Below are positions 61,202 through 64,000 of a stretch of 64,000 nt of DNA, in pieces. This DNA is from Streptomyces sp. NBC_00250 (GTDB taxonomy: Bacteria > Actinomycetota > Actinomycetes > Streptomycetales > Streptomycetaceae). The translations under genes and the position numbers were made by a program. The DNA lies in NCBI RefSeq assembly GCF_036192275.1, contig NZ_CP108088.1, forward strand, positions 6,139,501-6,203,500. Reading direction: 5' to 3'. How positions within the stretch are numbered: the stretch's first letter is position 1; each line of letters starts with the position of its first letter. The notes beneath the pieces are model-generated. The model had not been told where the DNA came from. It ran no database searches and saw only the letters and a list, made by a program, of their open reading frames with translations.

Positions 61202-61819
61202 CTACCGCACCCCGATGAGGTGGCCGTACGCGACCACGTTCCCCTGGTAGCCGTTCTTCTTCGAGAAGCCGCCGCCGCAGGTGATCACCCGGATCTCCGC
61301 GCGGCCCGCCTCGCCGTACACCTTCCGGTCCGGGAATTCCTTGTTCTCGTAGACCTCGACCGCGTCGACCGTGAACACGGCCGTCCGCCCGTCCTGCCGG
61401 TCCACCTCGATCCGGTGGCCCTTCTTCAGCGCGCCGAGGGTGTAGAAGACGGCGGGTCCGTCGGCGTTGTCGACATGGCCCGCGACGATCGCCGTGCCCT
61501 TGGCGCCGGGCGGGGTGCCGTTCTCGTACCAGCCGGCCATGTTCCGGTTCCCGGCCGGCGGTACGTCGAGCGAACCGTCCGGGGCCAGACCCAGCCGCAT
61601 CATCGGGGTGTCCACATCGGTCTCGGGGATGCGCAGCCGGACCGGCGCCGAGGGAGGCAGCGGGTCGGCGGCGGCGTCGGTGTGCACGCTCGGCCCGGCG
61701 GCGAAGGCCTGCGCGGCCGACGGTACGGGCGGGGTGACCTGCTCCGAGCCGTTCTGGACGAGCCAGAGCCCGACGCAGACGGCCACGGCTATGCCCCAGC
61801 CCTTGCTCCTGTTGCTCAC
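61202..61819 (-). CDS. Class F sortase
   Basis: 205 residues from GTG 61819. One N-terminal membrane helix (GIAVAVCVGLWLVQNG), then a sortase barrel: IPETDVDTPMMRLGL, the catalytic His in AIVAGHVDNADGPAVF (about residue 113), the catalytic Cys in IRVITCGGGF (about 178) and a C-terminal NVVAYGHLIGVR that replaces the usual Arg strand. This is the pattern of class F sortases in actinobacteria. It probably anchors the protein encoded just upstream (61902). Confidence 0.88.
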   Translation of the reverse strand: MSNRSKGWGIAVAVCVGLWLVQNGSEQVTPPVPSAAQAFAAGPSVHTDAAADPLPPSAPVRLRIPETDVDTPMMRLGLAPDGSLDVPPAGNRNMAGWYENGTPPGAKGTAIVAGHVDNADGPAVFYTLGALKKGHRIEVDRQDGRTAVFTVDAVEVYENKEFPDRKVYGEAGRAEIRVITCGGGFSKKNGYQGNVVAYGHLIGVR

Positions 61820-61843: not shown

Positions 61844-61887
61844 CCTGCCCCCGCCGGGCCGTGTTCGGGCGCTCCGGCGGGGGCAGG
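61844..61887 (-). terminator. 14-bp hairpin between the substrate and sortase genes
   Basis: CCTGCCCCCGCCGG / CCGGCGGGGGCAGG with a 16-nt loop (61858-61873), just after the stop of the 61902 gene and 25 nt before the sortase start. It may attenuate expression from the first to the second gene. Confidence 0.65.
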
Positions 61888-61901
61888 ACGGGCGGACGGT
61901 C

Positions 61902-62679: not shown

Positions 62680-63084
62680 TCAGACGCCCGTCAGGCCGGT
62701 GATCGCCGCCAGGGCCCACTCCTGCGCCCCCACCGTCGTACCGGCCACGACCCCCGTCGCGACGGGCGCGAGGGCGCCCCGGAGCGTGGCGAGCGCGCGG
62801 CGCAGCCTGGTCTCCTCGACGGGCTCGACACGGGTGATCTCGGCCAGGACCCCCTCGGCCGCGTCCTGGGTGTCCTGCCGGTCCTGCTCGGCGAGGCCGG
62901 CCCGGGGGAGCTGCCGGAGGAGCTCGTTCACCCGCTCGGCGAGTGCCTCGTACCCCGGCGCGACCGTGTTGTCGTTCTGCTGGTTCTGGGTGACGGTCTC
63001 GTTGCCCCAGGCGAACTGGGAGTGGGAGACGTCGCCGTTGAAGACCGGGCCGTCGTTGCCGGGTGTGCTCCGCTGCTCGTTCAT
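62680..63084 (-). CDS. Small protein with N-terminal QFAW motif, unknown function
   Basis: 134 residues. Residues 17-36 (GDVSHSQFAWGNETVTQNQQ) are nearly the same as the C-terminal motif of the upstream beta-helix protein. Residues 45-100 are helical and charged (LAERVNELLRQLPRAGLAEQDR). The C-terminus GALAPVATGVVAGTTVGAQEWA...AITGL is a hydrophobic, possibly membrane-active segment. The start codon overlaps the stop of the beta-helix gene (ATGA). The N/Q-rich motif recalls short amyloid-type or adaptor motifs that pair effectors with sensors; this is an inference. I do not recognise a named family with certainty. Confidence 0.7.
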   Translation of the reverse strand: MNEQRSTPGNDGPVFNGDVSHSQFAWGNETVTQNQQNDNTVAPGYEALAERVNELLRQLPRAGLAEQDRQDTQDAAEGVLAEITRVEPVEETRLRRALATLRGALAPVATGVVAGTTVGAQEWALAAITGLTGV

Positions 63085-64000
63085 GAGGGGGAACCGTCTC
63101 CTTCGGATGGCTGCTGGTTCTGGGTGACCACGTCGTTGCTCCAGGCGAACTGGGAATCATGGACATCGCCGTGGATGACCAGGCCGTGGTTGATGATCGT
63201 CGGTGGGGGCTCGGCCGGTGGAGCGCTCTTCCGGACCACGGGGAGCGACGTACGGAGCGAGACCAGTTCGACATGGCCGTTGTGCTGGACCGCTCTGCCC
63301 TGCGTGCCGCTCACCGAGCAGTCCACCAGGCGGCCGCTGCACCCGTTGTCGAAGACCGCCCCCGCGACGGCGCAATCCGCGAAGGTGCTGTGCGCGACGT
63401 CCACGTAGGAGGCGTCCCTGCCGCAGAGCCCGATCCCTTCCGAGTCGCTGACGGTCAGGTTCCTGGCGAAGAGTCTGCCGTTGCCCATCCCGATGGCGCC
63501 GCCGCTGCTCACGGTGCTCACCGCGCAGTCGTGCAGGAACAGTTGGGCGTCCTCGGTGACGCCGAAGCCCACGGTCCCGCGCTCCGCCGTGACCCGCCGC
63601 AGGGTGACCCTGGACTGGCCGGACGCGGTCACGGCGGGCAGGGTGAAGTCACGGAACAGCGTGTCGGTGAGGTCGGCCGTGGTGCCGCTGTCGCCCTGTG
63701 TCTCCAGGCCGGAGGGGCACCGTTCCACCCGGACATGATCGAACGAGGCGGCGGATCCGCTCCAGACCCGCAGCGCGACACTCGTCAGGTCCTCGACCCG
63801 GACGTTCCCGAAGCGGCCTCCGCCGCCCTCGCTGACCGCGATCCCGACGTTGCCGCCGGCGATGCGGCCGCCGTGCACCTCCGGCGCGCCGCCCCTGGTC
63901 GAGAACACGGCGATGTTCCCCGAGTTCAGCACCTGGCAGTCCTCGAACCGGCCTCGGGCCTCCGTCTGGACGTTGATGCCGGTGTCGCGGCAGTCGGTGA
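63081..64000 (-). CDS. Right-handed beta-helix repeat protein (5' end outside the window)
   Basis: The last about 306 residues are visible; the frame is open to the window edge (begins TDCRDTGINVQTEARGRFED). It consists of 20-25-residue parallel beta-helix coils (for example VHGGRIAGGNVGIAVSEGG, FGNVRVEDLTSVALRVWSG, VTLRRVTAERGTVGFGV, SYVDVAHSTFADCAVAGAVF). A linker with APPAEPPPTIIN leads to the C-terminal motif GDVHDSQFAWSNDVVTQNQQ, repeated at the start of the next gene product. No signal peptide or catalytic domain can be assessed because the N-terminus is missing. Translation is coupled to the downstream gene by ATGA. Confidence 0.85.
   Translation of the reverse strand, partial: TDCRDTGINVQTEARGRFEDCQVLNSGNIAVFSTRGGAPEVHGGRIAGGNVGIAVSEGGGGRFGNVRVEDLTSVALRVWSGSAASFDHVRVERCPSGLETQGDSGTTADLTDTLFRDFTLPAVTASGQSRVTLRRVTAERGTVGFGVTEDAQLFLHDCAVSTVSSGGAIGMGNGRLFARNLTVSDSEGIGLCGRDASYVDVAHSTFADCAVAGAVFDNGCSGRLVDCSVSGTQGRAVQHNGHVELVSLRTSLPVVRKSAPPAEPPPTIINHGLVIHGDVHDSQFAWSNDVVTQNQQPSEGDGSPS

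Follow-up and report, generated by a model that had tools for sequence, protein, structure and literature searches.

Organization of the locus

The window analyzed in this study, meaning the whole 64,000-nucleotide stretch of the Streptomyces sp. NBC_00250 genome (NZ_CP108088.1, positions 6,139,501 to 6,203,500), ends in two minus-strand genes, one for a right-handed beta-helix protein and the next for a small protein with a predicted four-helix domain, and each product carries one copy of the same short motif (Table 1). The beta-helix gene is the last of the window and extends past position 64000; read into the adjoining genome sequence, it encodes 568 residues in full, with its ATG at window-equivalent position 64787. 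The ATGA overlap between the two genes may couple their translation. The original prediction had pointed to this overlap and to a 20-residue segment found at residues 17–36 of the 134-residue small protein and again near the C-terminus of the beta-helix protein, and these placements, together with the coordinates and the strand, were all confirmed. The neighbors of the pair were judged by eye to be ordinary-looking genes. Elsewhere in the window, a perfect 18-nt inverted repeat was observed at 61381–61398 and 61882–61899, with arms 483 nt apart, one lying in a sortase-like gene and the other just upstream of that gene.

Table 1. Features of the gene pair at the end of the window.
Feature	Position	Strand	Basis
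Small protein gene, 134 aa (N-terminal motif and predicted four-helix domain)	62680..63084	-	Homologue searches, PADLOC, AlphaFold2
Predicted four-helix domain, residues 46–133 (helices 46–61, 66–83, 91–110, 118–133)	62686..62949	-	AlphaFold2
Motif copy B, residues 12–36 of the small protein	62977..63051	-	Motif profile; pLDDT < 50
20-residue segment of the original prediction, within motif copy B	62977–63036	-	
ATGA stop/start overlap (TGA 63081–63083, ATG 63082–63084)	63081..63084	-	
Right-handed beta-helix protein gene, 3' part in the window	63081..64000	-	Pfam Beta_helix 3.7e-18 (in-window part)
20-residue segment of the original prediction, copy A	63111–63170	-	
Motif copy A, residues 535–558 of the beta-helix protein, followed by a short tail	63114..63185	-	Motif profile, entropy
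Variable Pro-rich tether, residues 519–533, between beta-helix and motif	63189..63233	-	Column entropy

Conservation of the two motif copies

The 60-base segments of copies A and B were identical at 49 of 60 bases, exactly the number counted earlier by hand, and at 15 of 20 residues, and 67 of 82 bases were identical in the extended alignment of the two motif segments. When codons were shuffled (200 shuffles), no 60-mer of the small gene agreed at more than 39/60 bases with the beta-helix gene, of which the in-window part was compared. A search of the source genome with the motif profile revealed no third motif place better than E = 0.4. The 24-residue consensus GPVFxGxVxxxQxAWxNxxVxQxQ would suit a structure of short beta strands with turns.

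The motif was present in all 120 beta-helix homologues considered (the best 120 of 181), where 5–51 residues (median 5) separate its end from the C-terminus, and in 120/120 small-protein homologues (the best 120 of 193), where it starts 7–48 residues (median 7) after the N-terminus. The mean column entropy in the beta-helix family (61 sequences) was 1.70 for the tether (residues 517–533), 1.34 for the motif and 0.91 for the body; in the small protein, it was 0.96 for motif copy B compared with 1.05 for residues 42–134.

Pairing across genomes and chromosomal context

The motif profile was searched against 396 genomes from 236 genera, and five genomes were matched, all of them Streptomyces and each with exactly two matches that lay adjacent. 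Over 392 Streptomyces genomes, 65 matches at E up to 0.01 were obtained in 34 genomes, and 58 of these form 29 adjacent same-strand pairs, a pair being defined as two matches on the same strand and less than 1 kb apart. The motif thus occurs in many genomes with a bias toward protein termini, rather than being private to the window pair or randomly placed, as the original prediction required. Among the seven unpaired matches, three have an N-terminal extension (G048, G096, G150), one is a large fusion protein (G713, locus L087), one belongs to a decayed pair in which the beta-helix is detectable only over residues 97–249 (G243), one has a partner that scored under the cut-off (G755), and one is a weak match to a STAND protein in G096.

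The flanking genes of the window were found in 11 of 18 longer loci containing both genes, and other flanks in the remaining seven, one of which is a decayed pair; as three of the 18 were duplicated across two collections, these amount to 15 distinct loci, eight with the shared flanks and seven with others. The two genes thus remain together at the seven loci whose flanks are different. That they form one functional unit appears to be the best explanation of this arrangement.

Among ten loci read over 8–12 kb, the two Streptomyces pair loci had a second motif copy, and the other eight, seven of them from outside Streptomyces and one from within it, had a single copy. These single-copy loci weigh most heavily against the idea that two proteins are obligatory; they fit self-assembly, a partner located elsewhere, or a motif that binds its own four-helix domain. 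The two-protein module proposed originally is partly supported, with the 29 Streptomyces pairs in its favor and the single copies in 7/7 non-Streptomyces loci against a strict two-protein system.

The motif and four-helix unit

In the AlphaFold2 model of the small protein, residues 1–38, which include the motif, have pLDDT < 50, and the means of ten-residue blocks range from 72 to 86 over residues 41–134, so that the protein is predicted to consist of a disordered motif and a folded four-helix domain. Structure comparison returned generic bundles, and Pfam gave nothing above cut-off for the small protein. The end of the protein had been suggested to be hydrophobic and possibly membrane-active; this idea was not sustained, as the best 19-residue Kyte–Doolittle mean there is 1.37 and the model places the segment in the four-helix domain. 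Among the homologues (the best 120 of 193), a mean of 1.6 was reached in 4/120.

The distance from the motif end to the C-terminus is 91–103 residues in 200 of 201 proteins, the one exception (P0317) being without a motif match, and 0–226 residues precede the motif. As read from these sequences, the motif and the four-helix domain are a constant C-terminal unit that is also joined to other N-terminal regions. In records named Nocardia, Amycolatopsis, Actinosynnema, Saccharothrix and Clavibacter, the unit stands behind other N-terminal parts, including DUF1508, and among the loci read such forms are mostly unpaired. On plasmids of Saccharothrix, Nocardia and Clavibacter (L199–L202), the unit was observed with differing N-terminal regions, DUF1508 among them, and no second motif copy was found in about 12 kb. 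A further arrangement was seen at L087:5025-7133 (-), where the motif and the four-helix domain follow an N-terminal part of about 570 residues within a single 702-residue protein, for which Pfam gave nothing above cut-off.

Similarity of the small protein to defense families

Of 67 family members, 59 matched the PADLOC model of the phage-defense candidate PDC-M14B at E up to 0.1, the best of them at 2.1e-8, and the matches among the alignments inspected fell within model positions of about 151–269, covering the motif and the helices or, in the weaker ones, the helices alone. The small protein of the window matched at 7.6e-5 over model positions 157–251 of 267. The family thus shares the C-terminal unit of PDC-M14B, whose C-terminal half (about 151–254 of 267) aligns with the motif and the four-helix domain, whereas its N-terminal 150 positions are without a counterpart in the small protein and a full-length match is lacking in the window. 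Searches for PDC-M14B gave no match in 101 Streptomyces genomes (E up to 1e-5) or in 159 phylum-sampled genomes (E up to 1e-4); Methanosarcina acetivorans, used as the positive control for the genome searches, was matched.

The AbiTi model of PADLOC was matched weakly by 3/67 family members, best by P0114 (1.6e-4, 98 of 114 model positions), and not by the small protein of the window itself. On the basis of these alignments, the small protein appears to be a distant relative of phage-defense proteins. DUF5955 (PF19380) was also matched by 54/67 members at E up to 0.1; membership of the window protein was rejected at 16.4 bits, below the curated cut-off of 27.1, and the motif was absent from the eight DUF5955 proteins inspected by eye.

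The beta-helix protein and alternative upstream partners

As no hydrophobic N-terminal stretch was found in the beta-helix family, the beta-helix protein is probably cytosolic. The full-length protein matched 0 PADLOC families. Of the related actinobacterial beta-helix proteins at loci L098–L109, six were scanned (E 8e-23 to 2.5e-13), and in five of these six an AAA domain follows the beta-helix. These beta-helix/AAA+ fusions are related to the window protein in the beta-helix and differ from it in having the AAA domain where the window family has the Pro-rich tether and the motif. P0197, a homologue listed for the beta-helix family of the window, carries the record name 'stage V sporulation protein K'.

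A different upstream partner was found in 4 of the 29 Streptomyces pairs. Five loci (L058, L076, L079, L082, L089) have a different, smaller motif protein upstream that is helical-looking by eye, and no Pfam beta-helix match was obtained in the four of these five that were scanned. The PDC-M14B model was matched by one of four alternative upstream partners scanned, that of L039 (over the motif, 5.6e-4); the upstream proteins of L041, L042 and L089 and the downstream protein of L042 gave no match.

Covariation of the motif copies

The distances of motif A and motif B correlated when both protein bodies were taken into account (partial Mantel 0.27, p 0.001 from 2000 permutations, 49 pairs), and the within-pair motif identity of 0.571, compared with 0.524 between pairs, was reached by none of 5000 partner swaps. 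In the control comparisons, where the recomputed motif–motif partial correlation was 0.29, the small-protein motif gave at most 0.20 against 20 beta-helix windows, −0.09 against the tether and 0.02 against the last ten residues, and the beta-helix motif gave −0.25 to 0.17 against seven small-protein windows. Close relatives (body distance under 0.15) showed no covariation excess (0.004, 17 loci). The motif copies covary beyond shared ancestry, and the effect is modest.

At the residue level, 0.615 of the positions were shared within loci compared with 0.565 between loci (28 pairs), and codon identity at the shared residues was 0.751 within and 0.758 between loci (p 0.73, 28 pairs). Since residues are more alike within loci and codons are not, the codons give no indication that gene conversion has been general. 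For the pair in the window, the codons are identical at 14 of 15 shared residues, and local conversion may therefore have occurred there. A pair at L207:4410-6511 (-) has near-identical motif copies (GDVHNSQIAWGNExVTQ) that differ from those of most small proteins listed, and the locus is thus well suited as an example of either motif matching or conversion of a local kind.

Proposed mechanism and alternative explanations

The terminal bias of the motif, its sharing by adjacent genes, the covariation of its copies and the variety of partner scaffolds are as expected of a homotypic coupling motif. We give an even chance to the reading that such a motif links a beta-helix protein, serving as sensor or scaffold, to a four-helix effector resembling AbiTi, the two genes acting as one unit. 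The beta-helix protein would sense something or serve as a scaffold and would expose or cluster its tethered motif; physical contact between motifs, most likely homotypic and of beta type, possibly in a cross-beta or amyloid form, would then gather or template the small protein. The signal would pass in this direction to the four-helix domain, whose putative effector activity, by analogy with AbiTi, could be a toxic one leading to growth arrest or abortive infection, conceivably triggered by phage as part of defense. Several observations weigh against this reading: the unpaired motif copies; the modest covariation, with no excess among close relatives; the match of the window's small protein to PDC-M14B at no better than 7.6e-5 and its lack of a match to AbiTi; the absence of a defense-model match for the beta-helix protein; the single PDC-M14B match among the four alternative upstream partners scanned; the ordinary look of the neighboring genes; and the report that lactococcal AbiTi, unlike that of C. 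catus, was not toxic in E. coli (PMC3985639).

A wider version, which we put forward only tentatively, is that the motif family, possibly cross-beta, couples diverse sensors to an AbiTi-type four-helix effector, and that AbiT and PDC-M14 follow the same logic. The sensors in this wider version might be the beta-helix proteins, further small proteins, DUF1508 and N-terminal regions of other kinds. If it were true, AbiT would gain a mechanism in which the motif templates the assembly of a helical domain that arrests growth, with no NLR involved. The pair itself, in which a probably cytosolic beta-helix protein would stand in the place of the receptor and the small partner resembles a phage-defense candidate and AbiTi, would widen homotypic motif signaling beyond NLRs and suggest an assembly-based mechanism for AbiT.

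The pair could instead be a stable beta-helix/four-helix complex with a housekeeping or developmental role, the likeness to AbiTi and PDC-M14B being that of a common bundle preceded by an oligomerization motif. Such an assembly would suit the fixed chromosomal neighborhood of 11/18 loci, which is unlike that of a mobile defense gene, the lack of a PADLOC match to the beta-helix protein and the weak AbiTi scores. It is harder to reconcile with the patchy spread (34/392 Streptomyces genomes), the other neighborhoods of 7/18 loci, the occurrence of relatives of the unit on Nocardia, Saccharothrix and Clavibacter plasmids, and the match of 59/67 members to a defense-candidate model at E up to 0.1 over both motif and domain; we consider it unlikely.

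It is similarly doubtful, and marginally more so, that the motif docks on the four-helix domain following it, with the tail motif of the beta-helix protein competing with the small protein's own copy in a cycle of autoinhibition and release. The near-constant spacing from motif to C-terminus in 200/201 proteins, the loci without a second motif copy nearby and the mild covariation of motif A with the first small-protein helices (0.17, 0.16, 0.14) all point toward docking. Nevertheless, the model leaves the motif unfolded and off the domain (residues 1–38, pLDDT < 50), and the motif–motif value of 0.29 exceeds the motif–domain values, which are at most 0.17 and fall to between −0.25 and 0.01 in the later windows.

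A recent tandem duplication, the alternative kept in the original prediction, or a gene conversion, in either case of a functionless DNA segment, agrees with the adjacency of the copies and the 14/15 shared codons of the window pair, but is very improbable given that the motif is kept in 120/120 homologues on each side (the best 120 of 181 and the best 120 of 193) and beyond a variable tether, and that codon identity within loci equals that between loci (28 pairs).

Comparison with known systems

A literature search, with most subscription journals outside its scope, turned up no description of this pair, of such a family of coupling motifs, or of a motif that AbiTi has in common with the pair. 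The homotypic coupling of a beta-helix protein to a helical effector can be compared with several described systems. The BASS motifs found in Bell/NLR gene pairs were reportedly described by Dyrka et al. in 2020 (J Mol Biol). BASS pairs have a C-terminal motif copy in one gene and an N-terminal copy in its neighbor (PMC7889193, PMC8086366, PMC12261475), and bacterial amyloid or homotypic motif signaling is described around NLR receptors (PMC7889193). The window pair is alike in having a motif of 20–40 residues at the C-terminus and N-terminus of adjacent or overlapping genes, a helical effector-like domain and a filamentous bacterial host. It differs in that a beta-helix protein takes the place of the NLR (STAND) partner, Pfam having given Beta_helix for the one protein (in its in-window part and in its homologues), nothing above cut-off for the other and hence no NACHT or NB-ARC partner in the pair, and in that the motif of the helical protein is N-terminal, in contrast to the C-terminal motif of the Bell effector.

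The pair is therefore not a BASS/NLR member as defined, and on this comparison of layout and components membership is not claimed. The motif was also absent from 30 NB-ARC loci, AfsR-like by eye. The layout of a signaling pair that had been predicted is thus upheld by terminal bias, adjacent genes, covariation and varied partners, while its assignment to the NLR/BASS amyloid class is not supported. Separately, the N-terminus of a STAND/NB-ARC-like protein at L090:1641-3773 (-) resembles the motif at E 0.0098; it could be of BASS type and distantly akin to the motif, or the likeness may be due to chance.

AbiT of Lactococcus was reportedly described by Bouchard in 2002. AbiT consists of AbiTi and AbiTii, the products of two genes that together provide abortive infection in Lactococcus (PMC3985639, PMC3710099). 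Coprococcus catus AbiTi inhibited the growth of E. coli but the lactococcal protein had no such effect, and AbiTii did not protect against C. catus AbiTi (PMC3985639); AbiTii has an alpha+beta domain that also occurs before HEPN domains (PMC3710099). The window pair resembles AbiT in being two adjacent co-oriented genes with an ATGA overlap, and the unit aligns with the AbiTi model in its best member, P0114. It differs in that AbiTi was matched by 3/67 members of the family and not by the window's own protein, and in its partner, a beta-helix protein without a match to defense models, in whose in-window part Pfam revealed no AbiTii domain.

In the effector-associated domains (EADs) of bacterial conflict systems, adaptor copies are present on two proteins of one operon and have been proposed to couple them homotypically (PMC7159879). 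The Pfam matches listed for the small-protein family include no EAD, and EADs are domains, whereas the window motif is short and predicted to be disordered alone. With one adaptor copied on two proteins of an operon, EADs nevertheless provide a precedent for homotypic adaptors of the kind suggested for the beta-helix and four-helix pair.
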